Shown here piece by piece: positions 1,985 to 25,913 of a stretch of 43,886 bases of DNA; the stretch's first letter is position 1, and each line of letters starts with the position of its first letter. Source of the stretch: a virus; IMG/VR virus record IMGVR_UViG_3300027730_000932, positions 1-43,886 of that record; one strand, 5' to 3'. The translations under genes and the position numbers were made by a program. The notes below the pieces were generated by a model. It saw only the letters and a list, made by a program, of their open reading frames with translations. It did no database searches and was not told the origin of the DNA.

Positions 1985-3841
1985 ATGGGAGCATTATTAG
2001 AATCAGGTCTTGTAGGTAACATCGGGTTAAAACACCTTAAAGTTATCAAAGAAGACACTATAAACAAATGGGACAGATTAGGGTTCCTTGAAGGTCTTAA
2101 AGGCCACCTAAAAGAAAACGTAGCACAGTTATATGAAAACCAAGCTTCTTTCTTGATTAACGAAGCAACTTCAGAAGGTTCTAACGGAGCATTTGAAACA
2201 GTTGTTTTCCCTATCGTAAGAAGAGTTTTCTCTAAATTGTTGGCTAACGACATCGTATCTGTACAAGCAATGAACTTACCTATTGGTAAATTGTTCTTCT
2301 TTGTACCTAAAATCCAAGGTTACCAATCGGCAGGTGCCACTGGTGGTGAACATTATGCACCAATCGGTTCTCCAACTGCGGTTAACAGTGGTACTAACGA
2401 TCCTAACCAAGGTTATGGTACGGCATCAGTAACAAACTTCCCTTACGCAAAAAATCTTTATGATTTATTTTATGAAGGTGGTGAAGCTGGTTTAGATCCT
2501 CCAGGATTATTTGATTACTCTAAAGGTCAGTGGACTGCGGTTACTGCTCTTACAGACATCCAAGTATGGTCTAGTGGTAATCTAGTTGATTCGGCAGCAC
2601 CAACAGGTAATATCAGAAAAATGATTTTGAAAATTTCAGGATTCAGAACTTCAGGAGCTGGTAAATTAGTAGGTCCTGATGGTAATGAAATGGATTCAGA
2701 AACATTCTTATCTGACCTTAAAATTATTGCAAATCAACCAACTTTATCCGCATCTACAACACCTTGTAATGTACTTGCAGACGAAAACGGTACTCCAATT
2801 CCATTGTTATTTAGAGTTGTTACTCAACAATATGGTAAAGGAATTGTTCAATACGGTAATCAATCGGCAACGGTTTTTGCAACAAATGGAAGTAACGCAG
2901 GTAATGGTGGTTCTTACTACGATATCTGTGATGCTAACGGTTATATCTACGTTGAGGTAGATTTATCTTGTCCTGTATGTGCTGACTGTAACTCAACATC
3001 TTTAGATGGTTACACAGGTACTACAATTTATTCAGGAGCATCAGGTGATTCATTTACTTCAGTATACAGAACTTACAAAAATATGGAGTTTGAAGACCAA
3101 ATTGGTGAAGTTTCTTTTGATTTAGAATCAGTAACTGTTTCTGTATCTGAAAGAAAATTAAGAGCACAATGGTCTCCAGAAATGGCACAAGACGTTGCAG
3201 CATTCCACAACATTGACGCTGAAGCTGAATTGACGGCTTTATTGTCAGAACAAGTGGCTGCTGAAATTGACCGTGAAATTTTACGTGACTTAAGAAAAGG
3301 AGCGGCTTGGAACCTACGTTGGGATTACAACGGATGGAGAAGAATTGCTCAAACTACATCTTATACTCAAAAAGATTGGAATCAAACTTTAATTACGGCA
3401 ATCAATCAGTTGTCAGCACAAATCCACAAATCTACTTTAAGAGGTGGAGCTAACTGGATTGTTGTTTCTTCTGAGGTTTCTGCAATATTTGATGATTTAG
3501 AATACTTCCACGTATCTAACGCATCTCCTGAACAAGACCAATACAACATGGGTATTGAAAGAGTTGGTACTCTTGCAGGACGTTACCAAGTTTACCGTGA
3601 CCCTTACTTCCCACCAAACACAGTTTTGTTAGGACATAAAGGAACATCATTGTTAGACACAGGTTACATCTACGCACCGTACGTACCTCTACAATTAACA
3701 CCTACAATGTATAACCCGTTCAACTTTACTCCGATTAAAGGAATAATGACGAGATACGCGAAAAAAATGGTAAATAATCGCTTTTACGGAAGAATTACTG
3801 TTGATGGTGTTAGAACATTCGATTTAAGAGAATTGAGATAA
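1985..3841 (+). CDS. gp23: Major capsid protein (gp23-like)
   Basis: This T4-type hexamer-forming shell protein has 618 residues, against about 520 in T4. Diagnostic stretches are ENQASFLINEA near residue 51, the VRRVFSKLLANDIVSVQAMN block near 78, and the helix ...SPEMAQDVAAFHNIDAEAEL leading into LLSEQVAAEIDREILRDL. A probable prohead-protease site, I-N-E60|A61, matches the T4 rule (I/L)xE and would remove the N-terminal propeptide. The region around residues 225-360 is an insertion with a CPVCADC cysteine cluster, unusual for a gp23. It shares an operon with the scaffold gene and ends at a strong terminator. Confidence 0.95.
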   Translation: MGALLESGLVGNIGLKHLKVIKEDTINKWDRLGFLEGLKGHLKENVAQLYENQASFLINEATSEGSNGAFETVVFPIVRRVFSKLLANDIVSVQAMNLPIGKLFFFVPKIQGYQSAGATGGEHYAPIGSPTAVNSGTNDPNQGYGTASVTNFPYAKNLYDLFYEGGEAGLDPPGLFDYSKGQWTAVTALTDIQVWSSGNLVDSAAPTGNIRKMILKISGFRTSGAGKLVGPDGNEMDSETFLSDLKIIANQPTLSASTTPCNVLADENGTPIPLLFRVVTQQYGKGIVQYGNQSATVFATNGSNAGNGGSYYDICDANGYIYVEVDLSCPVCADCNSTSLDGYTGTTIYSGASGDSFTSVYRTYKNMEFEDQIGEVSFDLESVTVSVSERKLRAQWSPEMAQDVAAFHNIDAEAELTALLSEQVAAEIDREILRDLRKGAAWNLRWDYNGWRRIAQTTSYTQKDWNQTLITAINQLSAQIHKSTLRGGANWIVVSSEVSAIFDDLEYFHVSNASPEQDQYNMGIERVGTLAGRYQVYRDPYFPPNTVLLGHKGTSLLDTGYIYAPYVPLQLTPTMYNPFNFTPIKGIMTRYAKKMVNNRFYGRITVDGVRTFDLRELR

Positions 3842-4756: not shown

Positions 4757-6838
4757 ATGAAAAATTCACTATTTATTTTTTTTGTAATACTAACAAGTTT
4801 TTTTGTTAGATCACAAGTAAGTTCTTATACGTTTGGAACATCAACCGGAACATACACACCAATAGTTGGTGGGGTCAATTATAATAACTTTACAAGTTGG
4901 TCAAATACCAACTTTTTAGATGATAATAATTCGGCGGTATTAGAATCAATCGGATTTAACTTTGTTTATAATGGAACAACGTATACCCAATTTGGGGTTA
5001 ATGCTAATGGATTTATATCACTGGGGTCATTACCAACTAGTAGTTATTATCCATTATCAATAGGTACGTCAAATAATGTAATATCGGCAATGGGTGTTGA
5101 TTTAATAGGACGTGGGTCGTTATTAGCAAATAGAACAACTGGGAGTGCGGTAATTACAATTACAGGTGGAGACATATCTCTAATATCGGTTGGGGATAAG
5201 GTAAGTGGTACGGGTATTCCTGCAGGCGCCACAGTATTATCTAAAACCGCAACTACAGTTACAATTTCTGCAAATGCAACAACTTCGGGTACCGGATTTC
5301 ATTTTAAATTTAGTAGGTCAACATTTGGTATTAGATTTCAAACAATAGGAACATCACCAAATAGGACATTAGTGGTCCAATGGACAGGATGGCAAAGATA
5401 TACCACATCAAGGTTTTTTGGTGAATTATATAATTTTCAAATAAAATTAAACGAAACAACAAATACTATCGTGTTTGTTTATAATATATTAGGTCCTGGT
5501 TTAGGTCCTGACAGTGCTACGCCAACAACATTTCAGATAGGTTTAAGAGGAACCTCAAATACCAATTTTAATAATAGAACAACTACAACAAATTGGTCGT
5601 CAACTACGGCTGGAACATTAAACAGTTCAACAGTTACATTATCAAGTACGGTTAAACCAACTGCAGGATTAACATATACGTGGACACCGCCCGTTATTCC
5701 CGTTTGTTCAGGAACACCAAATCCAGGAAACACACTTTCTTCTTCATTAACATCACCACCAAACGGAACCGTAAATCTTTCACTACAAAACACCACAACT
5801 GGTACAGGGGTAACTTATGTGTGGGAGAGTAGTACAGATAATTCAACATGGACAACCTTTGGTTCCTCATCGGCTACACAAACATCACCACCAATCACAT
5901 CACCTACTTGGTTTAGATCTACCGTTACTTGTTCAGGAAATAGTGGGATATCAACACCTATTCAAATAACATTATCATATTGTACATATAATATAACTAA
6001 TAATGATCCTACAGGTATTACTTCTGTAACGTTTGGTACAATATCAAATACAAGTATTGGTGGTCCATCCTACAGTGATTTTACCACACAATCAACTACC
6101 GTAGAACAGGGTGGAATTTATCAATTAAATGTTAATGTGAACACAGATGGTAATTGGACGGTAAATACAAAGGTTTGGATAGATTGGAATCAAAATTACA
6201 TATTTGAAGTAGAAGAAGAGTATTCTTTAGGTAGTGCGTTAAACACTACTAATGGAATTACATCATTATCCCCTTTAAATATAACTGTACCAACTGGAGC
6301 AACTTTAGGAGAAACTAGAATGAGAATAGTATCAGTTGAAGCCAGTGATCCTGCACCACTAGCGTGCGGTACACAACTTTACGGCGAAGCTGAGGATTAT
6401 AAACTAACAATAACACCACCAACAGGACTTCCTGTAGAGTTACTATATTTTGATGGTATTACATATCCTTTGTTTAACTCACTTAAGTGGTCAACCGCAT
6501 CGGAACATAACTCAGATTATTTTGAGGTAGAGAGAAGTGTTGATGGTGAAATATGGAAGGTTGTTGGTAGTAAATTGGCTTCAGGTAATAGTACGGTAGT
6601 TATTAATTATAGTTATTTAGATTCTTTTGATGATTTGGTAATACATTATTATAGATTAAAACAGGTTGATTATGATGGTCAATATAAGGTGTACGGACCT
6701 ATTGGTTTAGATAATACAAAATCAGTTAAAAAAGTTGTTAAATACATTAACATTTTAGGTCAAGAAGTAAGTTCAGAAACAAACGGGTTTATTTTTGAGG
6801 TATATGAAGACGGTACAACTAAAAGAGTTATAAAATAA
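4757..6838 (+). CDS. Secreted chimeric surface protein with GEVED-like domain and T9SS C-terminal signal
   Basis: The 693-residue protein starts with a signal peptide (MKNSLFIFFVILTSFFVRSQ, Bacteroidota-type cleavage before Q). The N-terminal half is a beta-rich domain. It contains a TGTGIPAGATVL...VTISANATTSGTG stretch of a kind I associate with phage fibre proteins. Around 400-555 lies a GEVED-type domain (VWIDWNQNYIFEVEEEY ... ETRMRIVS ... YGEAEDYKLTI). An FN3-like segment follows (PVELLYFDG...LKWSTASEHNSDYFEVERS). The end (about 655-693, YINILGQEV ... FEVYEDGTTKRVIK) matches flavobacterial type A T9SS sorting signals. Such signals send proteins across the outer membrane to the cell surface. 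I infer that the infected host displays or secretes it. The role is unknown; adhesion, superinfection exclusion or a host-derived cargo gene are options. Confidence 0.8.
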   Translation: MKNSLFIFFVILTSFFVRSQVSSYTFGTSTGTYTPIVGGVNYNNFTSWSNTNFLDDNNSAVLESIGFNFVYNGTTYTQFGVNANGFISLGSLPTSSYYPLSIGTSNNVISAMGVDLIGRGSLLANRTTGSAVITITGGDISLISVGDKVSGTGIPAGATVLSKTATTVTISANATTSGTGFHFKFSRSTFGIRFQTIGTSPNRTLVVQWTGWQRYTTSRFFGELYNFQIKLNETTNTIVFVYNILGPGLGPDSATPTTFQIGLRGTSNTNFNNRTTTTNWSSTTAGTLNSSTVTLSSTVKPTAGLTYTWTPPVIPVCSGTPNPGNTLSSSLTSPPNGTVNLSLQNTTTGTGVTYVWESSTDNSTWTTFGSSSATQTSPPITSPTWFRSTVTCSGNSGISTPIQITLSYCTYNITNNDPTGITSVTFGTISNTSIGGPSYSDFTTQSTTVEQGGIYQLNVNVNTDGNWTVNTKVWIDWNQNYIFEVEEEYSLGSALNTTNGITSLSPLNITVPTGATLGETRMRIVSVEASDPAPLACGTQLYGEAEDYKLTITPPTGLPVELLYFDGITYPLFNSLKWSTASEHNSDYFEVERSVDGEIWKVVGSKLASGNSTVVINYSYLDSFDDLVIHYYRLKQVDYDGQYKVYGPIGLDNTKSVKKVVKYINILGQEVSSETNGFIFEVYEDGTTKRVIK

Positions 6839-7108: not shown

Positions 7109-8428
7109 ATGAACATAAATCAAATTCTAAGAAAAATTTTAAAAGAAGCCACTTCTGATAGTTCTGGAAGTAGGGGGTCGTATATTGCACCACTACAACC
7201 GGGTATTAGAATCTTCAAGAAAAACGAAATGGAACCATTTACAATACCCACTTCCAAATATGATAGTCCTATGTTAGAATTTGATAGTTATGATGGGAAA
7301 ATGGACGAAACAAAGAAACAGATTAAGAATATTGAATCTAAGGCTAAAAAAGTTTCCAACTATATAAAGAATCACCCAAACTCAACATTTAGTGATGAAG
7401 ATGGTAATGTAATTAATCAATACCCAGGAAAAAGTAAAAAAATAGTACCGGTTAATGAAACAACAACGTCCGTAAGTGCTGGTGAATATAATGGTCCTAT
7501 TGAAATAGGATTAAGGAAGTGGAAAAATTATCATTTAGAACCATTTATTTATGAGGTGGGTCACGAAATGAATCGCATTAGTAAACAAAAAACACTTAAA
7601 AATAATATATCTCGTGTTGTTGGTGTATGGGATAAAAATAGAAATGGGTCTTACGATTATGAAGTACACGATGTTCACACAATTAAAGAAGATCTTGCGG
7701 TATGGTTTGGTGATAAGAAAAAATCAAAAGGTTCATCAGAACCACAAGGTCCGTGGGTAAACATATGTAGCAATAAAAAAGGTGGAGGTCATCCACCTTG
7801 CGGTAGACCGGATTCAGATTCAAAAGGTTATCCTAAATGTAGGGCGGCTGGAGTCGCGGCAAAAATGACAGACGCACAAAAAAAATCAGCATGTCAACAA
7901 AAAAGAAGTGCTGAGAAAAAAGACACCCAGACGGGTAAAGGTCAAAAACCAACTATGACCACATATAAACCAAGAACAAATGAAAATATGAAAAGAAAAA
8001 TTATCACATTAACCGAAAACGATTTAATGAGAATTGTTAAAAGAGTTATAACAGAACAAACCGCACCTAAAGGTAAAGTAATTAACCTCTTTTGTCAAAA
8101 TGATATAAGAGATGATTCATTTAGAGAAAATGATTTAATCTTCAGAAGTGAACAAGATATGTATGGAGGAATAAATGGTAAGGGGTTTAAAAGATTATTC
8201 TTAACCCCGTCAAACTCATTAATTCCTAGAGAAACATATGAAGATGATACGTTTGTATTGGATATAATGCCAGCCAACAAATTAAATAAAGATTTTTTAA
8301 ACCAAAGTGAACTTGACGATCCTAACGCAACAATTTATTTTATTGGTACTAAATTTAGTTCACCATACTTTTGTCGTATAGATTCTGGTACTGATCCGGA
8401 ATGGGAAACTTATCTGAATACCTTTTAA
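7109..8428 (+). CDS. Two-module protein with capsid-targeting-like peptides, probable internal virion protein
   Basis: The 439-residue protein starts MNINQILRKILKEA, a short amphipathic peptide ending in L-K-E|A. This resembles the capsid-targeting leaders of T4 internal head proteins, which are cleaved after (I/L)xE. A second similar peptide, LTENDLMRIVKRVITEQ, lies inside at about residue 300, beginning at an internal MKRK, as if two leader-plus-cargo units were fused. Between them (about 205-285) is a Lys/Gly/Cys-rich segment: GPWVNICSNKKGGGHPPCGR, YPKCRAAGVAAKMTDAQKK and GQKPTMTTYKPR. It resembles a small basic domain recurrent in marine T4-like phages. The C-terminal 130 residues (KVINLFCQNDIR...YFIGTKFSSPYFCRI) are not recognised. 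Packaging in the head is inference. Confidence 0.65.
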   Translation: MNINQILRKILKEATSDSSGSRGSYIAPLQPGIRIFKKNEMEPFTIPTSKYDSPMLEFDSYDGKMDETKKQIKNIESKAKKVSNYIKNHPNSTFSDEDGNVINQYPGKSKKIVPVNETTTSVSAGEYNGPIEIGLRKWKNYHLEPFIYEVGHEMNRISKQKTLKNNISRVVGVWDKNRNGSYDYEVHDVHTIKEDLAVWFGDKKKSKGSSEPQGPWVNICSNKKGGGHPPCGRPDSDSKGYPKCRAAGVAAKMTDAQKKSACQQKRSAEKKDTQTGKGQKPTMTTYKPRTNENMKRKIITLTENDLMRIVKRVITEQTAPKGKVINLFCQNDIRDDSFRENDLIFRSEQDMYGGINGKGFKRLFLTPSNSLIPRETYEDDTFVLDIMPANKLNKDFLNQSELDDPNATIYFIGTKFSSPYFCRIDSGTDPEWETYLNTF

Positions 8429-8688
8429 TTTTTAAAATTAGGAACAACAATCGGTTCTTTAGGGATTCTAATGTTACCTCTAGTGTAAGCAAAAGTTTTA
8501 AACCATTCTTTTCTTTCGTTAGACCAAGTTGACATCTCAGTAGAGTACTCTGAAGTGAATTTATTAAGGTCGTACCCAATCGTATCACTATAAGTAACAA
8601 CATTTGATGTTTGTTCAGTATTATTTGTTGTTTGAGATAACAAATTAGAAGTTATAAAAAGAGCTAAAGTTAAAAAGATTGTTTTCAT
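8425..8688 (-). CDS. Small secreted protein with signal peptide
   Basis: I chose the ATG at 8688 because it opens a clear signal peptide (MKTIFLTLALFITSNLLSQ, cleavage before the TTNN tail) and lies downstream of a host-like promoter. The longer frame to 8769 would include the promoter and a terminator. The product is 87 residues. The mature part is polar (EYSTEMSTWSNERKEWFKTFAYTRGNIRIPKEP) with no recognised domain, and is probably periplasmic or surface-exposed in the host. Its stop codon overlaps that of the convergent 439-residue gene by a few bases. It may be an early host-modifying gene; this is inferred from the promoter only. Confidence 0.7.
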   Translation of the reverse strand: MKTIFLTLALFITSNLLSQTTNNTEQTSNVVTYSDTIGYDLNKFTSEYSTEMSTWSNERKEWFKTFAYTRGNIRIPKEPIVVPNFKN

Positions 8689-8712
8689 AATGTTTATTTT
8701 TAATTGTTTATA

Positions 8713-8743
8713 CAAATATAAGTATTTTATTCTAACCACCAAA
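8713..8743 (-). promoter_or_regulatory. Host-like Bacteroidota promoter (TTTG-N19-TAnnTTTG)
   Basis: On the bottom strand, TTTG (8740-8743) is followed after exactly 19 bases by TATATTTG (8713-8720), the Bacteroidota primary sigma consensus (-33 TTTG, -7 TAnnTTTG). It lies 24 bases before the ATG at 8688. The -33 box is inside the preceding hairpin. Confidence 0.7.
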
Positions 8744-8758
8744 ATTTTTGGTGGTTTT
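8735..8758 (+). terminator. Rightward terminator hairpin
   Basis: ACCACCAAAA (8735-8744) pairs with TTTTGGTGGT (8746-8755), with T residues following on the top strand only. It would stop rightward transcripts passing 8428 before they run antisense through the leftward small genes. Confidence 0.6.
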
Positions 8759-9190
8759 TTATTTACCAACGCGATTCTCTAATTTTTCTAATACGTGTTC
8801 TAAAGAGTTTTTAATTTGAGAACTAACTTCTTGTTCTGTCTCTGAACGTCTTTTTTCTGTTTCAGTATCAAAGATAAACGTTAATCTTTGCCAATCTCTA
8901 TCCGATAATTTAACGTTATAATTAAAAACGTGATTTGTGATTTCAACTCTACCATAATCCATAGTAACAAACATCTCAAACGTATTATTTCTAATATAAC
9001 GTTTATTAGACATGGGGGCAATCATAAAATCAGAATGGGGACTTGATATTAGTTTAAGACATATCTTAAAACAAGTTTTTTCGTATGACGAAATTTCTTC
9101 TTGGTAAGTTTTCATAAATGATGAACGTTTTGACCAGAGATAAAATCTCATTTTAAATCTTTTAAAGAATCTAATTATTTTTTTTTTCAT
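8759..9190 (-). CDS. Hypothetical 143-residue basic protein
   Basis: It starts MKKKIIRFFKRFKMRF, a strongly basic amphipathic N-terminus that could contact membrane or nucleic acid. A compact alpha/beta core follows (MIAPMSNKRYIRNNTFEMFVTMDYGRVEITNHVFNYNVKL), then DRDWQRLTFIFDTETEKRR and a helical tail. I do not recognise a named family. It has its own host-like promoter immediately upstream, which suggests expression early in infection by unmodified host polymerase. Confidence 0.7.
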   Translation of the reverse strand: MKKKIIRFFKRFKMRFYLWSKRSSFMKTYQEEISSYEKTCFKICLKLISSPHSDFMIAPMSNKRYIRNNTFEMFVTMDYGRVEITNHVFNYNVKLSDRDWQRLTFIFDTETEKRRSETEQEVSSQIKNSLEHVLEKLENRVGK

Positions 9191-9213
9191 ATATGTTTAT
9201 TTTTAATATATGA

Positions 9214-9244
9214 CAAAGATAATCAAATTTATTTAACTCACAAA
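9214..9244 (-). promoter_or_regulatory. Host-like Bacteroidota promoter (TTTG-N19-TAnnTTTG)
   Basis: On the bottom strand, TTTG (9241-9244), exactly 19 bases, then TATCTTTG (9214-9221). The -7 box ends 23 bases before the ATG at 9190. Spacing is identical to the promoter at 8713-8743. The -33 box lies between the arms of an inverted repeat. Confidence 0.7.
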
Positions 9245-9263
9245 CAAAATCTTTAAATAAATT
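9226..9263. repeat. AT-rich inverted repeat around the -33 box
   Basis: AATTTATTTAA (9226-9236) and TTAAATAAATT (9253-9263) are perfect 11-base complements with a 16-base gap. The gap holds the TTTG box of the promoter reading left, and the right arm overlaps the stop codon of the 154-residue gene. It could be an operator, a weak terminator, or chance in AT-rich DNA. Confidence 0.5.
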
Positions 9264-9726
9264 AACAATAAGCTCCCGAACAATGTTTTTTACCGTCTAA
9301 ACCTTTAATTTTACCTTTACATACTTGTACTGCGTGACCGTTTGCATATGCGGAGGGATACACATCGTATTTTGCCTTTGCCGATGCCTTACCTCTCGCA
9401 CAAAGAGGGGTACCGGTTTTTTTACGACCTTCCATCATAGTCATATCCTTGTCATCCATATTCATAGACATTTCCATACCATCTTTTTTGGATTCATTCA
9501 TTAAAAAGTCAAATACTTGGTCCATATTATTTTTGGCTTCTGAAATATGGTCTTGTGCCCAATCGTGACCGTCATCAAGAATTTGTTCAATCATAGATTG
9601 GTCTAAATCCAATAGTAGGTCACACTGTCTTCTCATTTGTTCTAAATTAGAAAAGAACATATATCTTTGGGATCCCCGTTCTTCTTCCAGTAAAACTTTT
9701 TTAATTAATCTATCTAAATTTCTCAT
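9262..9726 (-). CDS. Probable internal virion protein with capsid-targeting-like leader and Cys/Lys C-terminal domain
   Basis: The 154-residue protein opens MRNLDRLIKKVLLEEE, an amphipathic leader ending in L-L-E, a possible head-protease site like those of T4 internal proteins. A helical acidic middle follows (NLEQMRRQCDLLLDLDQSMIEQILDDGHDW), then a Met-rich linker (MEMSMNMDDKDMTMM). The C-terminal ~50 residues read KKTGTPLCARGKASAKAKYD ... YPSAYANGHAVQVCKG and end in KKHCSGAYC. That PLCxRGKAxAKxK...YPSAYANxxAxxVCKG pattern recurs in T4-like environmental phages without a known function. It is translated from the same short operon as the 55-residue gene upstream. Confidence 0.65.
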   Translation of the reverse strand: MRNLDRLIKKVLLEEERGSQRYMFFSNLEQMRRQCDLLLDLDQSMIEQILDDGHDWAQDHISEAKNNMDQVFDFLMNESKKDGMEMSMNMDDKDMTMMEGRKKTGTPLCARGKASAKAKYDVYPSAYANGHAVQVCKGKIKGLDGKKHCSGAYC

Positions 9727-9736
9727 TTTTAAAATA

Positions 9737-9904
9737 TTACGAATTTAATCCATCAGGACCTCCAAGAACTACCATATTCAATTGAGTTACCGTACCTCCT
9801 GTTAAATCTGACCATACTGGATGAGGTGGTGTCACTGACACCACTGATCCGTCACATAACGGAATACATATTGTAACTTCGGTATTTGCGCTTACTTCTC
9901 CCAT
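9737..9904 (-). CDS. 55-residue stand-alone copy of a neighbour's C-terminal module
   Basis: A short ATG-to-TAA frame encodes a 55-residue protein containing VTICIPLCDGSVVSV and QLNMVVLGGPDGLN. The last ~50 residues of the adjacent 674-residue protein read VDICIPLCDGSVVSV ... QLNMITLGGPNGLN, so this is clearly a duplicated module. The copies differ at both DNA and protein level but keep frame and length, which argues for a selected gene rather than debris. A TATTTATA promoter motif lies 15 bases before its ATG. It may be an assembly partner or tip cap of the larger protein; the role is unknown. Confidence 0.75.
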   Translation of the reverse strand: MGEVSANTEVTICIPLCDGSVVSVTPPHPVWSDLTGGTVTQLNMVVLGGPDGLNS

Positions 9905-9919
9905 TTTTATTTGTTTTTA

Positions 9920-9927
9920 TATAAATA
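9920..9927 (-). promoter_or_regulatory. Late-type promoter motif TATTTATA
   Basis: The bottom strand reads ATATATTTATATAAAAAC, 15 bases before the ATG of the 55-residue gene and just after the stop of the 674-residue gene. Confidence 0.5.
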
Positions 9928-9933
9928 TATTGT

Positions 9934-11958
9934 TTAATTGTTTAATCCATTTGGACCACCTAATGTTATCATATTTAATTGTGTTACTTGGGTTCCATAT
10001 CCGTCAGTCCATTCAGGGTGAGGGGGATTTACAGATACTACTGATCCGTCACATAATGGAATACATATGTCAACTTCCGCACCCGCATTTCTTGGTTGTC
10101 TGGTATTGTCAAAAACACAATCATCACAATTAAAGTAAAAATTAAGAATATTAATTTCTGGATAATCTCCGTTTATAAGACAAGTACCATTAATAACATA
10201 ACATTTACTATATTGTATAATATTAAATGTGGTATACCCAAAATTATAAAACGTAAAATAATCATTTAAAGAAACACTAACATATTGTTGGTTTGATCCA
10301 TCACATTCGGAGATAGAAATATTAACCCTTGAACTTAATAAACATTCATCGCAAATTTGGTAAGCGTCGTTTGTTAATGAGTTATATATTGGGTAAAAAC
10401 CCATAGATGGGTCATAAGGACTTATTAAGGTGTAACAATCAAAATCAACTGATCCCCATTTTACTCTAACTCCGTCTCCAGAAATAAACCCATTTGTAGT
10501 TGTTATTATTGATTGTTGACCTGTACTACAACTCTCTCCTAACCAAACAAAATTATCAGAAAAATCACAAGTTTCACAATCTATTAATGAATTAAAACTA
10601 TATATTTGATATCCACCTATAGGATTTGAATACGACGTAATCTCAACACAATCGTCTAACCACGGAACATATAACGTGGTACCAATGGGGTTTTCAATAT
10701 ATTGATAAGATACAATTGAATCTTCATTCACTACATTCTGTACCGTAATAATAATGTCATCATCAGGACTAATACCACCAATCTCACTACCTAAAAGCGT
10801 TATGGTATCACCAACATCATATAAAATACCAAGATTAGGTAATCCGATTGAAGATATTGTATTTGATTCTACTACAACTTCAAATAACGCATATTGACCA
10901 CTACCATCAGTGTTACCCGTTACGTAATACGTACCATCTGTTAATACCGAAATGGTAGTGTCACTATAATTAAATCCCCCTATTGGTCCTGTGCCGCTAC
11001 AAGTTGAATAATAATACTGAATACCTGTACACTCAACACAATCCGTACAAGAAGGTTGGGGTTCAAAATTTAAAAATGATGATATTGTTACACCACTTTC
11101 AGTTAAATCCCCAATATCGTAACAACCAAGTTTGTATGATAAATTACTAAAATCTTCTGATTCTAATAATGTTGATGCCCAAACAACTTGTTCTGTTCCG
11201 TTTATACAATTTGTTATTATTCTTTTATCGGCAACTTGACCTAAACATTCCTCACATTGGGATGGGTCAATAAATGGACCTAAATCAGCAACTAATGTTA
11301 CGTCTGGACTTGATCCCTCATCCACAGCCCCAACAACACCACAAAATTGTTGAAATAATAATGGGTCATAATAGGTAATTAAATTACCAACATAATCATC
11401 ACTTGGTAATTGAACATATTTAGTAAATCCATCAAGACAATCAATAACCGTATATACAAATGAGTTTTCTGCAATACAAGTTTCACAACTATCTTCTAAT
11501 GGTGATATACTAATTACTTGACCAACGTCTCCGTCATATTCCGTTAAAAAAGAATTAATATTAAAACACCAAGTTATTGGATTACCACCAATATATATGA
11601 ATGAAATATAATAAGTTTGTCCAACATCTAATGTCCCCGTAAATGCAGATATTGGTAAAGGAAATAAATTAGAATTTCCACTTGGTGGACAAAAACCAAC
11701 TAAAACATATTGCGAACTACCATTAATACAATCTAAACAATCTGTATAACTGTCCCCTAATATCATATTTGGGGTTCCTGAGTCAGGAGTAATTTTACTT
11801 GGTAAGGTATAACAACCTGATGGTATACGACCACCAAATACACTTTCAAAATAGTAAGTACCACCAGAGGTTATTGCCGATAATGGGTCATCAACAAGAA
11901 ATGAGTATTGAAGTCCGTCACTACACCCTGATACGTTAAATTTTAATATATTTGCCAT
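9934..11958 (-). CDS. Modular Cys-rich (CxxC) structural protein
   Basis: The 674-residue protein is built from about seven related beta-rich modules, each joined by a CxxC pair followed roughly 12 residues later by a single Cys. Examples are CLDCINGSSQYVLVGFC, CETCIAENSFVYTVIDC, CEECLGQVADKRIITNC, CETCDFSDNFVWLGESC and CDECLLSSRVNISISEC. One module carries an inserted segment (nt about 10745-10915: GILYDVGDTITLLGSEIGG, then SPDDD) related to inserts in the 808-residue fibre. The last ~50 residues are duplicated as the separate 55-residue gene. It sits first after the baseplate genes and shares a 1-base stop/start overlap with the next gene upstream. A virion surface or tail-associated role is likely. 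Whether the cysteines form disulfides or bind metal cannot be told. Confidence 0.7.
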   Translation of the reverse strand: MANILKFNVSGCSDGLQYSFLVDDPLSAITSGGTYYFESVFGGRIPSGCYTLPSKITPDSGTPNMILGDSYTDCLDCINGSSQYVLVGFCPPSGNSNLFPLPISAFTGTLDVGQTYYISFIYIGGNPITWCFNINSFLTEYDGDVGQVISISPLEDSCETCIAENSFVYTVIDCLDGFTKYVQLPSDDYVGNLITYYDPLLFQQFCGVVGAVDEGSSPDVTLVADLGPFIDPSQCEECLGQVADKRIITNCINGTEQVVWASTLLESEDFSNLSYKLGCYDIGDLTESGVTISSFLNFEPQPSCTDCVECTGIQYYYSTCSGTGPIGGFNYSDTTISVLTDGTYYVTGNTDGSGQYALFEVVVESNTISSIGLPNLGILYDVGDTITLLGSEIGGISPDDDIIITVQNVVNEDSIVSYQYIENPIGTTLYVPWLDDCVEITSYSNPIGGYQIYSFNSLIDCETCDFSDNFVWLGESCSTGQQSIITTTNGFISGDGVRVKWGSVDFDCYTLISPYDPSMGFYPIYNSLTNDAYQICDECLLSSRVNISISECDGSNQQYVSVSLNDYFTFYNFGYTTFNIIQYSKCYVINGTCLINGDYPEINILNFYFNCDDCVFDNTRQPRNAGAEVDICIPLCDGSVVSVNPPHPEWTDGYGTQVTQLNMITLGGPNGLNN

Positions 11959-13421
11959 TATTTTTTATTTACAATTTGGAATTTTATTTGTTTTTTATAA
12001 GTATTAATCTCACCTGTGGAAATAACTTTTAAATCTACATAATATTCATTTGGTATTTTATCTCTTGTATCAAAAATAAAATAATACTCATTTGTTGTTC
12101 TATTTAATTTTGTCCAATCCTGAACTTGAACTTCTGTTTGACCCTCTCTAACATAAACACGATAAAAACCTTCCACTTTTGGTAATTGTTTATTGGTTGT
12201 AAATGCCTGTTTAATTATTACACTAACTTTTCTAATATCAGTATTTAATATTTTTTCATCTTGTTTAATTCCATAAAAATCAAAACCGTATGTCGATGGT
12301 TCATTAGTTGTTGTAATAAGTTGTATAGATTTTTTAATTGGATAAATAACAAACTCGTTAACCACATTAGGTAATGAAAACCCATTTAATTTTAAATTAG
12401 ACCAAGTATCTGTAAATATACAAGGAGTATGATATCCGATAAGTGGTGGTATTGTAACCTCATAAACCCCTTGAGTTCTTTGGCATGTAGGTAGATTAAT
12501 TAATCCTGGGATTGCAGTTCCGGTTTGGTCTTTAATAGTAACAAAAGGATTTTCATCGAGATTTTGAAAACTACCATCCTCAAAAGAGTAAAGGTAAAGT
12601 TTGTTTGTTTTACCTAAAGAAAAACTATTTCTATCATCCTCGATTAAATCATCATATATTGTTTCTAATCTTGGTTCATAAAATGTCTGAGTATGTCTTG
12701 AAAAGAACCCAACATAGTAAGGTGCAGTTGTTCCAGTTAAATTTTCTAATTGAGGTAAATACGAAATCCCCCACCCAACAGGGTTAACATATCCTCCTTC
12801 TATAATTGAATTTATCTCATCTGTCATATCAAACTCAATGTTCTCATCCCCAAATTCAAAATGTTGCATGTCAACAATAGTTAATGCTGAAAATGGAAAA
12901 ATACCATTATTAGTATTGTCATAAATACCTTGTTGTTCCCAATCATATAAAGTTTCTCTTTGAACCCAGTTAGACGGTCTTATTGAATAGTTTCTATCTC
13001 CGGGGGATGATTGTACATCTGTGAAATCATAACCAACCCCTTCATCCCAGGTTTGTGGTTTTGTTTCGTTAAAATCCTCATAAGGTATTCTCCACAAAAT
13101 TAAATCAAATGAAGTTGCTCTTTCCATTTCTGATGAGGTCTTTGTGTTTAAAAAATCTCTATCAAAAAAAGAGGTGTTAACCATCCTTAAAATGTGTTTA
13201 ACATTATCAAAACAGGTCACACCTGTTGTAATAATTCCTTGTTGATATTTTTCCTGCAATTCTGTAAGGTCTATATTAAATATAAATCTTGAGAATCCAA
13301 TTGGAACTTTAACGTCACCGTCACCATAGTACAACTCAACAATAGGGTTTCTTCCCGTATTTGTTAAACCACTGTAGACGATAGTGTTATTCCTACTAAA
13401 ATAAGAGTTGTGAATTGACAT
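11958..13421 (-). CDS. Probable tail/baseplate structural protein, unassigned
   Basis: The 487-residue beta-rich protein has no signal peptide or membrane segment. The N-terminus reads MSIHNSYFSRNNTIVYSGLTN and NPIVELYYGDG. Later stretches rich in Tyr, Phe and Trp (DLILWRIPYEDF, GWGISYLPQLENL, GFFSRHTQTFYEPRLETIYDD) are typical of phage fibre-network or baseplate proteins. Its stop codon overlaps the start of the Cys-rich protein and it follows the gp5-like gene, which supports a tail role. A TATTTATA motif precedes its start. I recognise no named family. Confidence 0.6.
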   Translation of the reverse strand: MSIHNSYFSRNNTIVYSGLTNTGRNPIVELYYGDGDVKVPIGFSRFIFNIDLTELQEKYQQGIITTGVTCFDNVKHILRMVNTSFFDRDFLNTKTSSEMERATSFDLILWRIPYEDFNETKPQTWDEGVGYDFTDVQSSPGDRNYSIRPSNWVQRETLYDWEQQGIYDNTNNGIFPFSALTIVDMQHFEFGDENIEFDMTDEINSIIEGGYVNPVGWGISYLPQLENLTGTTAPYYVGFFSRHTQTFYEPRLETIYDDLIEDDRNSFSLGKTNKLYLYSFEDGSFQNLDENPFVTIKDQTGTAIPGLINLPTCQRTQGVYEVTIPPLIGYHTPCIFTDTWSNLKLNGFSLPNVVNEFVIYPIKKSIQLITTTNEPSTYGFDFYGIKQDEKILNTDIRKVSVIIKQAFTTNKQLPKVEGFYRVYVREGQTEVQVQDWTKLNRTTNEYYFIFDTRDKIPNEYYVDLKVISTGEINTYKKQIKFQIVNKK

Positions 13422-13441: not shown

Positions 13442-14944
13442 TCAATTAATCCGAATATTTTGATTTAAAATTGTTTTTTCTGCATTTGCCAATGCGGTTG
13501 TTATGTCTGAAATTTTGACCCCTTGTAATGGTTCTTGTATTGGAGCCTCATTAATGTTGTGAGTATGAGCCTGAATAAACCCAACAATTAGTTTTAGAAA
13601 ATCTATAAGTTCCTCACCTCTAACCATAGAACTTGTGTTTGGTTTTATATCATCAAGGATTTTCTCCTGAGATATTCCATATAAAGTATCTTTTAAATTA
13701 AAAATATTTCTATTTGGATTTTCCGCCCTGTGAGATAATAAATAAAGATAATCACCACCCATTAAACCATATGTTACAGGTCTCTCAAGATATTTTATTT
13801 TTTCTACAATAGTTTCCTTAGAAACTTTTTGAGGTCCTACAGTATCTTTGTCCCAAACAACGGCAAACCCTGATTCACTATTAACTTCATTTAATTTTAT
13901 ACCATTAAAAACTGTTGTTATTAAATTAGATACTATTACATCATTACTTAATAATTTTTCATTTGTACTTACATTTGGACCAAAAACAAAAGGAAATTGT
14001 TGATTCATTATTCCATTGTTAGGATAATCTTTATATCCGGGTATTATAACTTTACCCCTATTGAATCCTCTAATATATTGGTTAACCAAAGAAATTACTT
14101 CTAATGTTGTAAATCCTGTGAATTCCATTTTTGATCCTGGAACAGGAATACAATTAGATGTTGTTCCGGTATTAATTGCAAAATTTAAAACTTTTGTTGA
14201 CTCTGTCGGTTTAACGGAATTTGTTTGAACATACCCGCTCATAATATTTAAAGTGGTGTCTACTCCGGTTATTGACCACTCAACAAAGTTTTTTACTTCT
14301 TGGTCAACATAAAAATCAACATTTAAACTCATTGACCCATCATCAACCCTTTCTAAAGTATAATTTGATAGTTGGACAAACGACCTAAGATCATTTGATG
14401 TTGGTATTTCTTTATTTGGTGATTTAGTATATTTTCCAGATCTTAAAATAACATCCTCTTGTTTTATTAAAATATCTGAAGTACCTCTACCTAAAATTGC
14501 ATTATCTCCAGGTTCCGGATATATCCCTTTTATGTTTACATCAATTTCTCCGGTAAGTTTGTTCCTAACATCCTTTGCTTGTTTTATGTAAACCCCATTG
14601 TCTAACATAGATTGAGAGTTGTCATAAGATTCAAATGAGTTGTTCCAAGGACGACTTATTGGACCTTGTATGTAGAATTTGTTTGCCCCTCTTATTTCAT
14701 CACGAGTCGCATACATAACGTGAACATATTCACCTACTCTTGGGACCTGACTAATGTAGTACGGTATTAATGGTAGAAAAACAAAAGGGTCTTTATATGT
14801 CCATATATCTTTAGATGCATTCCAATCTACAGGGAGTGATTGTAATTGATTATCAATTTTTGGTAATACTCTAAGCCTACCCAACATTAGTGGGTCTACA
14901 TTATCTAAAACTTTACCGGATATTATAATTCTCTTATCTTCCAT
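13442..14944 (-). CDS. Baseplate hub/spike protein with gp5-like N-terminal OB-fold
   Basis: The 500-residue protein begins with a segment typical of the OB-fold of phage baseplate hubs (T4 gp5 N-terminal domain): GKVLDNVDPLMLGRLRVLP, then FVFLPLIPYYISQVPRVGEYVHVMY and NKFYIQGPI. There, the pattern of "note the deviation, DPxxLGRxRV, then P..P.VGE.V" is conserved. The T4 gp5 lysozyme domain is absent. The C-terminal part has a helix LIDFLKLIVGFIQAHTHNI carrying an HTH (His-x-His) motif; such motifs occur in spike proteins, but here the role is unknown. It probably sits at the centre of the baseplate. It overlaps the small gene upstream by 11 bases. Confidence 0.72.
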   Translation of the reverse strand: MEDKRIIISGKVLDNVDPLMLGRLRVLPKIDNQLQSLPVDWNASKDIWTYKDPFVFLPLIPYYISQVPRVGEYVHVMYATRDEIRGANKFYIQGPISRPWNNSFESYDNSQSMLDNGVYIKQAKDVRNKLTGEIDVNIKGIYPEPGDNAILGRGTSDILIKQEDVILRSGKYTKSPNKEIPTSNDLRSFVQLSNYTLERVDDGSMSLNVDFYVDQEVKNFVEWSITGVDTTLNIMSGYVQTNSVKPTESTKVLNFAINTGTTSNCIPVPGSKMEFTGFTTLEVISLVNQYIRGFNRGKVIIPGYKDYPNNGIMNQQFPFVFGPNVSTNEKLLSNDVIVSNLITTVFNGIKLNEVNSESGFAVVWDKDTVGPQKVSKETIVEKIKYLERPVTYGLMGGDYLYLLSHRAENPNRNIFNLKDTLYGISQEKILDDIKPNTSSMVRGEELIDFLKLIVGFIQAHTHNINEAPIQEPLQGVKISDITTALANAEKTILNQNIRIN

Positions 14945-17532: not shown

Positions 17533-18282
17533 TCAATCTTTTAAAATCTCTTGAATAAGTTCTAAATATAATTTTTTATATCTTTTCATAGAACTCCTAA
17601 TTTCTTTTGTTGATAAGTTGGTCATCTCCCTTAACTCAAATAAAATTACGTTTTTATTAAACTTATTATTATTTGTATCAGGAAATATTGATCCATAATT
17701 TTCAAAAAGGTCAGAGATTGCTTGACCTAATTTTACCTCTTGTTCGGTTATTTTATTATCATCCATACTATCTTTTAACTTACCTAAAAATTTTTTAATA
17801 ATTTCTTCTGTAGTTAACTCTTCATTATCAATGTAATAAATCATATCAGGACTATGTTGTAAATCAGATGAAATGTCCTCGTATGAAATTTTACGATTAG
17901 TTTCCTTCTGGTCTTTCATAATTTGACCCATAAGATAATTCTTACAGATAGTCCCAAAATATGAATACGCTTTTTTTTCTTTTGATGGTTTAAATTTATC
18001 AATTTTTGTCATCAAAAATGAATGCGTATCAACATGAATTTCATCGTAACTCATATCTTTTCTATATAATTTATATCGTCTTATTATTGACGATATCATC
18101 TTATCCAAAGGAAACTTTAAAAACTCATTATATATTTTATTCTTCTCCTCAAAAGTAGTTGCGGTTAGATATTCTCTAACCGCATTTTCTTCTCGTTCTG
18201 CAAAATAATTTGTTGTTTTTGGTTTTCTTCCTTTCTTTTTCTTTTCATCACAATTTTCACAAGTTTGTTCATTTTCTAACAT
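17533..18282 (-). CDS. Late-transcription sigma factor (gp55-like)
   Basis: The 249-residue protein carries a sigma region 2-like block: a helix with SIIRRYKLYRKDMSYDEIH, then FKPSKEKKAYSYFGTICKNY and LMGQIMKDQKETNRKISYED. This fits the F.P.....AYFxxIxxN.....K pattern of T4 gp55-type sigma factors, which redirect host RNA polymerase to late promoters. The C-terminal helices (LFELREMTNLSTKEIRSSMKRYKKLYLELI) resemble a region 4-like helix-turn-helix, which T4 gp55 lacks. The N-terminus has CENCDEKKKKGRKPK, a Cys pair plus an AT-hook-like basic patch. Its stop and start codons are coupled to its neighbours by very short overlaps. The likely target motif, TATTTATA, recurs in the window. Confidence 0.75.
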   Translation of the reverse strand: MLENEQTCENCDEKKKKGRKPKTTNYFAEREENAVREYLTATTFEEKNKIYNEFLKFPLDKMISSIIRRYKLYRKDMSYDEIHVDTHSFLMTKIDKFKPSKEKKAYSYFGTICKNYLMGQIMKDQKETNRKISYEDISSDLQHSPDMIYYIDNEELTTEEIIKKFLGKLKDSMDDNKITEQEVKLGQAISDLFENYGSIFPDTNNNKFNKNVILFELREMTNLSTKEIRSSMKRYKKLYLELIQEILKD

Positions 18283-19089: not shown

Positions 19090-20151
19090 TTATTCTATTG
19101 TTTCAAATTTAGTTAATTGTTCTTCAAATGTTCTCATTCTTGTTTCTACCATATTTGAAAATACTTCCAAAACGCGAGATTCAAACTTTGACATATCTGA
19201 ATATTCAGACGAGGTTTTTTCCATAAAAGTATATAATTCAGGGTTAACGTTATCCTCTAACCAATTTTGGACAAAATCTGAAATAACATCCACCATTGAG
19301 TTTTTATTGACTAACCATAGTCCGTTATCTTCATTTAACCATTCCGGTTGCAGATTAGGTACTAGACCAATTACCGGAACTCCCATCTTCATTGATTCAA
19401 GAGGGAAGGTACCAAACCCACTAGTTTCATCTACCCAGACAGATAAGAAACTATCTTTAAGTGCATTTGCAAATTCAGTTTCAGTTAGACCTCTTAAATC
19501 TCTAAATGTTATCCATCTATATTGTGGGAATCTAACGTAGAATTGTTTTATGATGTTAGCGGTATCTCTTTGGTCTCTAGTGTGAATTGAGATGATTGTT
19601 TTAGGTGGGAACTCTGATTTTTCAAAAACCTGAGAGATAACTGGTTCAATAACATCAAATGAAATTTTTCTCATTAGAGTATCAATATGTTCTTTCTGTT
19701 TTTCTGATGTTGTAATACATTTATAAAAACTCATCTGAGTCCAACTTTGACCAGGTTGTAAAGTTTCAAAAATATGGTCATATGCTTGAGTTAAAACAAC
19801 TTTACCACAAGGTAAATTTTTAACTTGTTCCATAATGTAACCAAATATTTCTGGAATAATTATAAGATCGTCTGGAGAAATTTCCAAGTTTCCATCATCA
19901 ATTGATTTATGTGGGAGTTCGGACATATATTCTTCACCTAACCAACTACCAACACCAAAGTATTCTTTATTTTCGTGTAATATAATTGGGTTATATCCGT
20001 TTTTCTTAAGGGTCATTGCCATCTGATAAATATATCTAACAGAAGCTCTAGCATTTCCTTTAGTGTCTTGTACTATAAAATACAAACGAGATTTCTTATC
20101 CTTCATACTTTGGATTGATTTCTCTAGTTTTTTTACTTGTTCTGAGGTCAT
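19090..20151 (-). CDS. GT-B fold glycosyltransferase (GT4-like)
   Basis: The 353-residue protein has an N-terminal Rossmann-like half (SRLYFIVQDTKGNARASVRY, QMAMTLKKNGYNPIILHE). The C-terminal half contains ALKDSFLSVWVDETSGFGTF followed by PLESMKMGVPVIGLVPN. This is the donor-binding E-rich loop of GT4-like enzymes, where the second Glu contacts the nucleotide sugar. The linker KTIISIHTRDQRDTANIIKQF is also typical. It is one base from the downstream GT2 gene, so the two are translationally coupled and may act in sequence. Sugar specificity cannot be read. Confidence 0.8.
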   Translation of the reverse strand: MTSEQVKKLEKSIQSMKDKKSRLYFIVQDTKGNARASVRYIYQMAMTLKKNGYNPIILHENKEYFGVGSWLGEEYMSELPHKSIDDGNLEISPDDLIIIPEIFGYIMEQVKNLPCGKVVLTQAYDHIFETLQPGQSWTQMSFYKCITTSEKQKEHIDTLMRKISFDVIEPVISQVFEKSEFPPKTIISIHTRDQRDTANIIKQFYVRFPQYRWITFRDLRGLTETEFANALKDSFLSVWVDETSGFGTFPLESMKMGVPVIGLVPNLQPEWLNEDNGLWLVNKNSMVDVISDFVQNWLEDNVNPELYTFMEKTSSEYSDMSKFESRVLEVFSNMVETRMRTFEEQLTKFETIE

Positions 20152-20155
20152 AATT

Positions 20156-20410
20156 TTATATTTTGTTTATTATTTTATTCATCAATAATGTGTTGAATGC
20201 AATTTTAAAAGGGATAGATAGTTCATTACTTTTCATCCCTAAATTTTCATCCACTTCATTACTTTCGGTTAATACGGTTTCCAACATCGATTTTACAATC
20301 TCATATTTTACTAAATGTATTTGAGTTTCTCCGGACTCCCCGTCAAATTGGACATATTGGTCAATAACCTCTAAGTCCACATAGTAATTTTCGTTAAATA
20401 CTTGAAACAT
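20156..20410 (-). CDS. Hypothetical 84-residue protein
   Basis: A small acidic protein starting MFQVFNENYYVDLEVIDQYV, with a beta-rich first half and a helical second half (VKYEIVKSMLETVLTESNEV, then IPFKIAFNTLLMNKIINKI). No family is recognised. It overlaps the start of the pseudo-HAD gene's 3' end by 17 bases, so the pair is co-translated and may work together. Confidence 0.6.
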   Translation of the reverse strand: MFQVFNENYYVDLEVIDQYVQFDGESGETQIHLVKYEIVKSMLETVLTESNEVDENLGMKSNELSIPFKIAFNTLLMNKIINKI

Positions 20411-21080
20411 ACTTTTTAATTTTTTCTAAAGTTTCTTTGAATTCAGAAAGGGATGATACCTCGTATTCTGATTCAACGTGTTTATTATAATCTGTTGTAA
20501 ATTTTACAACAATTTTATCCTTTGGTTTTTCTAATAATAAGGTAGGATTAGCCGTAAGTAAAACGTCAACGTCATTCCACATATTATTTTTAGTTATTTC
20601 ACTATAAAAAAGTACCTTTTCAAGTAAACATCCAAACTTTGATAAGAAAAATAATGAAGATGGTTTTGATTTACCAATCTCATCCGATACAATTAATAAA
20701 TCATACTCATCTCTTAATTCATAATACAAATCATTTAATATATTAAATGTTGACATCTCTGTTGATGGTGCGTGACCAAATAATTCCATGGTATATTCTT
20801 CATACATAAAAGAATAAAGACCATCTTTTGATGGAAAAGAAAAATGATTTAATAAATCCAAAGATGTAACATCACTTAAAATTTTATATTCAAACAAATT
20901 AGAATCAACATTCTCATTAATGGAAACCACTTCATCAGTATCTCCAGAAAATTCTAATTCATATGTTTTATCCGTTGATTTATATTCGTGACTATCAAGT
21001 AAATGTTTTTCATATATTTCTATGAATTTACCAATAGTATCCCTAAGAACTCCATTAATCTCAATCCCTATTTTCATCAT
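20394..21080 (-). CDS. HAD-like protein with degenerate catalytic motif
   Basis: The 228-residue protein starts MMKIGIEINGVLRDT; the second Met may be the true start. Active HAD phosphatases and 5'-nucleotidases have DxDGxxRD here, with the first Asp as nucleophile. In this protein the two acids read E7 and N9. The later YDLLIVSDEIGKSKPSSLFFL fits motif II/III positions (Ser, Lys), and NDVDVLLTANPTLL fits the motif IV region. The fold therefore looks kept while the nucleophile is lost, so it is probably a binding or regulatory pseudo-enzyme. It overlaps phoH by 20 bases and lies within the sugar block. Confidence 0.6.
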   Translation of the reverse strand: MMKIGIEINGVLRDTIGKFIEIYEKHLLDSHEYKSTDKTYELEFSGDTDEVVSINENVDSNLFEYKILSDVTSLDLLNHFSFPSKDGLYSFMYEEYTMELFGHAPSTEMSTFNILNDLYYELRDEYDLLIVSDEIGKSKPSSLFFLSKFGCLLEKVLFYSEITKNNMWNDVDVLLTANPTLLLEKPKDKIVVKFTTDYNKHVESEYEVSSLSEFKETLEKIKKYVSSI

Positions 21081-21801
21081 ATTTACTTAGTATTTTACTT
21101 ATTAATGGATTTCTAACATTCTTAGCGTCCCTAAAATCATAAACACCAATATCTGGTACGTCCTTGAATCTTTGGATGGCATCATATAGTCCCGATTGTT
21201 TTTTATCTTTATATCTATCAGTTTGTTCTAAATCTCCAGAAATAAAGAACTTACTATTATATCCAATTCTTGTTAACAATAATTTCATTTGATTTGGTGT
21301 TGAGTTTTGGGCTTCCTCAAAAACTAAGATTGAATTGTCAATATTCATACCCCTCATAAAAGCCAAAGCAAATACTTCAATAACTTCTAAGTCCTTTAAT
21401 TTTTCTCTAGCTTCTTTACCAATAATTTTATTTAATAGATAATAAGATGGAAAAATATAAGGATCTAATTTTTCCTCAAGATTACCAGGTAGAGAACCTA
21501 ATTTTTCCTCTGCCTCAACCGCCGGTCTTACAATGATAATTTTTTCATAAGAATTGTTTGGGTCCATTAATAAATCAACCGCCGCTTTCATTGCAATATA
21601 TGATTTACCAACACCTGCTGGTCCTGACGCAACCGTAATTTGATTATTTTTAAGAATATTATAATACTCTTCTTGATGGTTGGATAAAAATTTATTTTTT
21701 TGTTTTTTCTTTATTACAGAATTTATTAAATCTTTTTTTGAAAACTGTGGTTGTGGAGACGTTTCATCGTCTTTTTGTATTGGTTTTTTTCTAGCTGTCA
21801 T
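21061..21801 (-). CDS. phoH: PhoH-like ATPase
   Basis: The 246-residue protein is the phage-type short PhoH. Walker A is ASGPAGVGKSYIAMKAA (G60-S67); Walker B is ILVFEEAQN (158-166), followed by the sensor region LLLTRIGYNSKFFISGDLEQ. A basic N-terminal tail precedes the ATPase core. PhoH proteins are ATPases, some associated with RNA helicase activity; their role in phage infection is unsettled, and the name does not imply phosphate control here. It is common in T4-like phages. It overlaps the HAD-like gene and abuts the fucose synthase gene. Confidence 0.95.
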   Translation of the reverse strand: MTARKKPIQKDDETSPQPQFSKKDLINSVIKKKQKNKFLSNHQEEYYNILKNNQITVASGPAGVGKSYIAMKAAVDLLMDPNNSYEKIIIVRPAVEAEEKLGSLPGNLEEKLDPYIFPSYYLLNKIIGKEAREKLKDLEVIEVFALAFMRGMNIDNSILVFEEAQNSTPNQMKLLLTRIGYNSKFFISGDLEQTDRYKDKKQSGLYDAIQRFKDVPDIGVYDFRDAKNVRNPLISKILSKYDENRD

Positions 21802-22713
21802 TTATTTTCTTAAAAAGGTATAGTTTTTTTCAAAATATTCAATAGTTTCTTTAAGTCCTTCGTACAATGGAGTGAATTTAAAGTTGGGTAAGTAATTTTT
21901 AATCTTACTATTATCACTTGGTTTTCTAAATTGTCCGTCAGGTTTTGAGGTGTCCCATTTAACCTCACCTTTAAAATTCATTAACTCTACAATAATATTT
22001 GTAACATCTTTTATTGAAATTTCTTCTGATGTCGATAGTATTATAGGTTCGTTCTCATTATAATTGTGGAGTACCCATTCAGTTAACTTAGCAACATCTC
22101 TACTAAAAATAAACTCTCTTAGTGGTTTACCTGACCCCCATATTGTAAGAGGAGTTTTATTTTCTCTAGCCAAATAACATTTATGTATTAAAGACGGTAA
22201 CACGTGTCCATTTACAAGGTTGTAGTTGTCGTTAGGACCATAAATGTTACAAGGTATTACTGATTTATAGTTTAAACCATATTGTTCTTTATATGCTCTA
22301 ATTTGTATGTCCGCCATTCTTTTAGCGTACGCATAAGCATCATTTGAGTTGTGGGGTGATCCTAAATGTATTTTTGATTCTGTTAACGGATATTCAACAC
22401 TATCAGGAAAAACACAAGTAGATAAAAATGATACTAAATTTTTAACTCCTGACATTCTTGCTCCTTCAATAACATTAGTATTCATCATAATGTTATCATA
22501 AAAAAACTCACCCTTAAAATTCATATTACCGCCAATACCACCAACCTTAGCAGCACAATGAATAATACCATCAAATTGTTTTAACATTAATCTGTTAGCG
22601 TCTTCAGTTTTACGTAAATCGTATGATTTTGAGGTTGGTTTAAAATAATTATCACCAATAAATTCGGATCCAACCAATCCATTTCCACCTGTAACTAATA
22701 TTTTATTTTCCAT
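21802..22713 (-). CDS. fcl: GDP-L-fucose synthase
   Basis: The 303-residue short-chain dehydrogenase catalyses epimerisation and NADPH reduction of GDP-4-keto-6-deoxymannose to GDP-L-fucose. The Rossmann motif VTGGNGLVGSEF lies at residues 7-18. The catalytic set is present as S98 with C100 (SFLSTCVFPD) and Y127-x3-K131 (DAYAYAKRM), matching the known S, C, Y and K of the family. WGSGKPLREFIFSRDVA near residue 195 is the substrate-binding loop. It is coupled by an 11-base overlap to the dehydratase that makes its substrate. Length is normal for the family. Confidence 0.95.
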   Translation of the reverse strand: MENKILVTGGNGLVGSEFIGDNYFKPTSKSYDLRKTEDANRLMLKQFDGIIHCAAKVGGIGGNMNFKGEFFYDNIMMNTNVIEGARMSGVKNLVSFLSTCVFPDSVEYPLTESKIHLGSPHNSNDAYAYAKRMADIQIRAYKEQYGLNYKSVIPCNIYGPNDNYNLVNGHVLPSLIHKCYLARENKTPLTIWGSGKPLREFIFSRDVAKLTEWVLHNYNENEPIILSTSEEISIKDVTNIIVELMNFKGEVKWDTSKPDGQFRKPSDNSKIKNYLPNFKFTPLYEGLKETIEYFEKNYTFLRK

Positions 22714-23680: not shown

Positions 23681-23687
23681 GTTTTTT

Positions 23688-25246: not shown

Positions 25247-25281
25247 TTTATTATTATTTAAATGTTTATGTGGTTTTATTA

Positions 25282-25911: not shown

Positions 25912-25913
25912 CT

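Follow-up and report, generated by a model that had tools for sequence, protein, structure and literature searches.

A 55-residue module with a hypervariable loop, encoded alone and as the C terminus of larger proteins, is a candidate recognition element of T4-like phages

PAAR proteins and T4 gp5.4 are small, conserved proteins that are encoded near a gp5-like hub, occur in stand-alone or extended form, and contain conserved Cys and His residues. In DGR variable proteins, the variable region lies near the 3′ end of the gene, and several targets per genome can share a variant. Segments of high variability are also found in the T2-type gp38 tip adhesins, such as those of phages PP01 and S16, where hypervariable and length-variable stretches alternate with conserved glycine-containing motifs (PMC12892980). 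T4 Hoc presents a conserved C-terminal domain after a string of beta-domains that varies in number; its capsid-binding domain comprises ~96 aa arranged as a sheet and a three-helix bundle, and some phages possess a second, shorter Hoc-like protein (PMC10385173).

The window, which is the whole stretch of viral DNA analyzed here (43,886 nt; positions 1 to 43,886 of IMG/VR record IMGVR_UViG_3300027730_000932), is a piece of a T4-like phage genome, since it encodes a gp23-like major head protein (1985-3841), with Flavobacterium phage immuto among the best cultured relatives of this protein (~40% identity), and yields a weak match to a gp55-like late sigma factor (17533-18282). The genes of interest are ordered, along the minus strand, 666 aa, 500 aa, 487 aa, 674 aa, 55 aa, and 154 aa (Table 1), and in most relatives the 154-aa gene forms the other boundary of the locus. 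Weak but repeated matches of the neighboring families suggest a tail or baseplate setting. The 500-aa family resembles gp5-type hubs (phrog_430 in 10 of 33 members, best E 3e-4; Phage_base_V in 2 members; T4 gp5 itself at E 0.8). For the 666-aa family, the resemblance is to tape measure proteins (phrog_167 in 9 of 31 members, best E 1e-4).

Several other genes were noted in the window. A cluster for a nucleotide-sugar epimerase, a methyltransferase, and a glycosyltransferase is located upstream of the tail genes (19090-31482, minus strand). On the plus strand, an 808-aa protein (40945-43371) matches an antifreeze-type beta-roll at a sub-threshold level (PF21300, E 8e-6), and a 693-aa protein (4757-6838) with relatives in loci L010 and L016 combines a signal-like N terminus, a GEVED domain (PF20009, E 3e-19), and a C-terminal tail that resembles, by eye, a type IX secretion sorting signal (ILGQEV...NGFIFEVYEDGTTKRVIK). 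These features of the 693-aa protein suggest a Bacteroidota host.

Table 1. Position of the module genes, their parts, and their neighbors in the window.
Feature	Position	Strand
154-aa conserved downstream gene (phrog_27331 motif)	9262..9726	-
Core gene of the system, encoding the C-terminal module alone (55 aa)	9737..9904	-
Conserved scaffold half and C-terminal end of the 55-aa protein, PHPVWSDLTGGTVTQLNMVVLGGPDGLNS, with stop codon	9737..9826	-
Hypervariable loop (around residues 9-26 of the 55-aa protein), EVTICIPLCDGSVVSVTP	9827..9880	-
Promoter-like element TATTTATAT, 23 bases ahead of the 55-aa ATG	9919..9927	-
Second module copy (674-aa protein, residues 620-674), with stop codon	9934..10101	-
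674-aa protein, optional fused form	9934..11958	-
487-aa partner gene, directly preceding the module gene(s), with a predicted beta-rich product	11958..13421	-
500-aa protein, from a family with weak similarity to the gp5-type baseplate hub and OB domain	13442..14944	-

A first-pass annotation of this DNA had described the 55-aa frame as a separate gene that matches the C-terminal ~50 residues of the neighboring 674-aa protein, and both statements are borne out. The ORF is intact and begins with ATG, and residues 5-55 of its product align without gaps to residues 624-674 of the larger protein, with a local score of 197 compared to a mean of 32.5 (SD 4.7) and a maximum of 56 for shuffled sequences (n = 1000). 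A search of the whole record returned 71% identity over the same residues (E 1e-22). The likeness is far from chance. The codon-substitution comparison that the annotation had proposed indicates purifying selection. Because pN remains below pS between the two copies in the window (0.31 versus 0.64) and in all 276 pairs of stand-alone module genes, and because dN/dS is ~0.17 between the 55-aa gene and its ortholog in L001, the nearest relative, both copies look like selected coding sequence.

Relatives were collected in two surveys. Viral contigs were searched with the 55-aa protein and then with the family alignment, yielding ~80 related loci; a second, independent survey used the 487-aa protein as the only bait and yielded 79 loci, new or re-centered. 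A protein ending exactly in the module is encoded directly downstream of the 487-aa gene in 78 of the 79 bait loci, which are all of the readable ones, and in the remaining locus the contig end falls inside the body of such a protein. In every one of 114 distinct module proteins, the module extends to the last residue. The small gene is kept and intact in the loci examined, but the annotation's view of this gene as a copy of the larger protein's tail that would cap or compete with the latter is not supported, since many relatives contain a stand-alone gene (55-65 aa) directly after the 487-aa gene and no 674-aa protein. The 55-aa gene thus does not require the 674-aa gene. L001 and L002, the nearest relatives of the window (95% identical), lack the 674-aa gene and have an intact 55-aa gene, ahead of which they retain an 18-codon scar corresponding to the 3′ end of a 674-type gene (QVTQLNMVTLGGSDGLNN; 6016-6054 in L001). 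In L121, a 51-aa ORF represents an internally deleted remnant of a 674-like gene. The scar, the remnant, and the loci devoid of a 674-aa gene indicate that the big gene is gained and lost while the module stays; the 674-aa gene is an optional accessory to a core formed by the 55-aa gene. No relative of the module or of the 674-, 487-, or 500-aa proteins was found among cultured phage records, no confirmed relative in bacterial genomes, and no family holding the module in Pfam or PHROG.

The N-terminal bodies that precede the module change in size by steps of a ~72-residue, Cys-bearing repeat that is predicted to be mostly beta. These tandem repeats usually number 0, 1, 2, or about 7 and give no Ig fold match. 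Module proteins of 55-65 aa contain none, those of 123-138 aa contain one, and those of 195-209 aa contain two; in large proteins of 598-758 aa usually five to eight repeats are detected, and in the largest form (911-929 aa) five to seven, together with a long insert. The 674-aa protein consists of seven detected repeats with an insert at about residues 310-395 (weak phrog_6005 match at 330-410), followed by the module. Bodies of other types also occur: in L009 and L012 the module ends a 437-aa protein without the ~72-aa repeat that appears, by eye, to be a propeller of 'DGKILVGG' repeats, and in L060 it ends a 726-aa protein with leucine-rich repeats, again by eye, at its start. In L099, the gene for a module-less protein of 1699 aa (7496-12829) separates the 487-aa gene from a 75-aa module gene; the 1699- and 75-aa proteins are possibly a split fused form.

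Structure prediction for a repeat plus the module (mean pLDDT 87, pTM 0.59) produced an all-beta module, and the model had no match in the PDB or BFVD at E <= 0.001. Structure and fold searches returned no match pointing to the ligand of the module. A degenerate body repeat as the source of the module was rejected (profile comparison probability of 1.1% only), and a FliC flagellin match of the module profile (E 0.05) was judged to be due to chance. For the 487-aa protein, the model (pLDDT 69) matched only generic beta-domain proteins at low TM, and these matches were not used for structural identification.

A late-type promoter of its own had been assigned to the 55-aa gene in the 29-base gap that separates it from the 674-aa gene, and this assignment survives in part. 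The exact T4 late box (TATAAATA) is present in the gap on the opposite strand only (9920); what the coding strand contains ahead of the 55-aa ATG is TATTTATAT. The same class of element occurs ahead of the 487-aa gene of the window (at about 13441). Across relatives, 48 of 67 loci contain it ahead of the 487-aa gene, and 36 of 101 module genes are preceded by it, compared to 0.5% of random 60-mers, and it is absent before the 666-, 500-, and 154-aa genes (0/57, 0/67, and 0/78; 0/202 upstream regions). Given this recurrence and absence, TATTTATAT is a credible promoter-like element, albeit not the T4 consensus, and its enrichment before module genes means that the 55-aa gene probably has its own transcript start. 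Further TATTTATA(A/T) sites, which correspond to the reverse complement of the T4 late box and constitute a candidate promoter element of the phage group, are found in the window at 13441, 17532, 24248, 34467, and 34492 on the minus strand and at 7087, 17521, 26725, and 34481 on the plus strand; several of all sites are located just before genes.

Conservation within the module covers residues 5-8 and 27-55; between these stretches, residues 10-26 form a loop that is hypervariable in sequence and length (column entropy of 2.0 bits versus 1.0 in the C-terminal half). The conserved half follows the pattern PHPvWsD..G..VtQLNm..LGGpnGLN-COOH. In genomes with two modules, the mean within-genome loop identity is 0.659, compared to 0.359 with partners shuffled (0/5000), and the corresponding values for 16 less related genomes are 0.723 and 0.376 (0/10000). 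Between genomes, proteins with bodies that are 77-94% identical differ in their loops, which are only 35-41% identical across the compared pairs (window 674-aa protein and L044_677, body 87% and loop 39%; L070_602 and L075_604, 94% and 41%; L030_675 and L015_676, 86% and 35%). The loop of the window's 674-aa protein is, however, 88% identical to that of the 55-aa protein in its own genome, and in several genomes loops match that of an unrelated same-genome neighbor at 82-100%. Loop type follows the genome, not the protein body. Like loops in both copies are not obligatory, since L119, L030, L017, and L015 retain two module copies with clearly different loops.

Traces of conversion are visible at the DNA level. 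In L058 and L070, the loop codons are identical in both genes while the flanks differ, and in L035 the two loops are distinguished by a single amino-acid change with no synonymous difference; in these three loci, 8-11 synonymous differences fall outside the loop and none in the loop codons. Many copies share conserved DNA on either side of the loop (CCAAGAAGTGCAAATAC before, CCAGTATGGACTGATGGTTATGGAAC after). In L117 and L090, the loops are alike in protein despite 5-9 synonymous differences, a pattern that argues for selection as well as conversion.

Loop variation was also compared with that of the neighboring proteins. Spearman coefficients are close to zero for the 487-aa (0.06), 500-aa (0.04), and 154-aa (-0.02) proteins, with slight covariation for the 666-aa (0.10) and 143-aa (0.24) proteins. 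487-aa proteins that are 98% identical (L103/L105, L044/L058) can adjoin loops with identities of 22% or 43%. Conversely, loops as similar as 87-96% adjoin 487-aa proteins that are only 57-67% identical. Docking of the loop onto the 487-, 500-, or 154-aa protein was rejected on these grounds. Because the loop does not covary with neighboring phage proteins, a ligand outside the phage, of which the host surface is the simplest case, would fit it better than a phage partner. It is important to note that homogenization alone could be neutral gene conversion between neighboring repeats; the ligand reading draws solely on the very high between-genome diversity and the lack of covariation.

Based on these data, we favor, with slightly better than even confidence, an exchangeable, tail-associated recognition module in which a conserved scaffold presents a host-ligand loop. 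The 55-aa protein would be the minimal form of this small, all-beta, virion-associated module. Its conserved half would serve as the scaffold that fixes the module to the tail or baseplate assembly of the 500-aa (gp5-like) and 487-aa genes, and the hypervariable loop would face outward and recognize a host ligand. The module could function alone or with an optional N-terminal body (other folds, or beta repeats numbering 1, 2, or ~7) that would serve as an extender or as a second adhesin. Recombination via the conserved DNA flanking the loop would swap loop types between phages and spread a single type to both module genes within a genome, and the two copies would thereby usually retain one specificity. 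We infer the tail location from the weakly gp5-like and tape-measure-like neighbors, and the function of the module from evolution and position. A more far-reaching proposal, to which we give somewhat less than an even chance, is a hitherto undescribed recognition system based on a 55-aa receptor-binding cassette that has its own gene and is the universal C terminus of interchangeable adhesins; loop types would circulate between phages and, by copying, reach each of a genome's module genes, such that all copies change host specificity together.

Alternatively, the module may be a docking tag that anchors N-terminal display bodies, with the stand-alone gene filling or stabilizing the same sites bodiless. 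The bodies are optional and exchangeable, and a conserved C-terminal module behind a variable string of beta-domains, sometimes in two proteins per phage, is the arrangement of Hoc (PMC10385173). However, an anchor interface should be conserved or covary with its partner; the loop, in contrast, is hypervariable and does not follow the neighboring proteins. The bare module stands alone in many phages, and the locus is on the strand opposite to that of the window's capsid gene, which together leave this reading unlikely in our view.

We regard it as improbable that the module caps the central hub spike in the manner of PAAR or gp5.4, with the C-x2/3-C motif and His as metal ligands and the fused forms as extended tips. 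The module is always present at least once and adjoins a gp5-like gene, and its loop is built on C-x2/3-C, with Cys13, Cys17, and His28 being nearly invariant. Yet some members have Asn or Lys in place of His28, the Cys pair is missing from one form (L077_79), and searches of Pfam and the PDB detected no PAAR domain or other similarity. Moreover, a piercing tip offers no obvious reason for swapping the loop or for two homogenized copies.

The first-pass annotation had also considered that the small protein caps, competes with, or co-trimerizes with the 674-aa protein. Although within-genome loop identity would likewise be expected if both modules shared one oligomer, the stand-alone gene exists in many phages without the big protein at the locus, and long contigs with a stand-alone module contain no second copy elsewhere; we consider this reading quite improbable. 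A neutral tandem duplication, in which a terminal repeat of adjacent genes without shared function is kept alike by frequent gene conversion, would account for the visible conversion tracts and could, through single crossovers between repeats, explain the deletions in L001 and L121, but it is very improbable in light of the purifying selection on the small gene, the module protein in every readable locus, and the loop proteins of L117 and L090, which stay alike despite synonymous change.

The gene for this putative recognition module is below usual size cut-offs yet universal at its locus in a large T4-like phage group, and the searched records of cultured phages contain no relative of this locus. 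Should the loop determine specificity, a stretch of 16-22 residues would serve as a marker of host range for metagenome-only genomes, and the paired copies would represent a natural case of gene conversion keeping adhesin specificity in step.

Compared to the described systems, the loop differs from DGR variable regions in that its length varies. A DGR origin was rejected: reverse transcriptase (PF00078) was detected in 0 of 21 related records, which may be fragments (control genomes were positive), and long contigs contain just the one or two gene copies and no third, template copy. Like PAAR proteins and gp5.4, the module is small, near a gp5-like gene, and equipped with conserved Cys/His residues; it gives no PAAR match, and its length, motif, and variability differ. 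With gp38 it shares a conserved scaffold, a hypervariable and length-variable segment, and the association with the tail, which for the module is inferred. In contrast, gp38 is larger and forms a poly-glycine II sandwich with several loops, whereas the module is a 55-aa beta domain whose one main loop sits between conserved flanks, only one of which (LGGxNGL) is glycine-rich, and which occurs both stand-alone and as the C terminus of very different proteins. With Hoc it shares the position of a conserved C-terminal module behind a variable number of beta domains, but it has 55 aa, is predicted to be all-beta, contains a hypervariable loop, and is encoded next to hub-like genes. Membership in either group is rejected because the homology tests failed, with no sequence or fold match to gp38 (PGII sandwich) and no Pfam, PHROG, PDB-sequence, or PDB-fold match to the Hoc capsid-binding domain. 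The module system appears to work like gp38 and Hoc at once while being a member of neither, and it constitutes a new family of the modular phage surface protein type.
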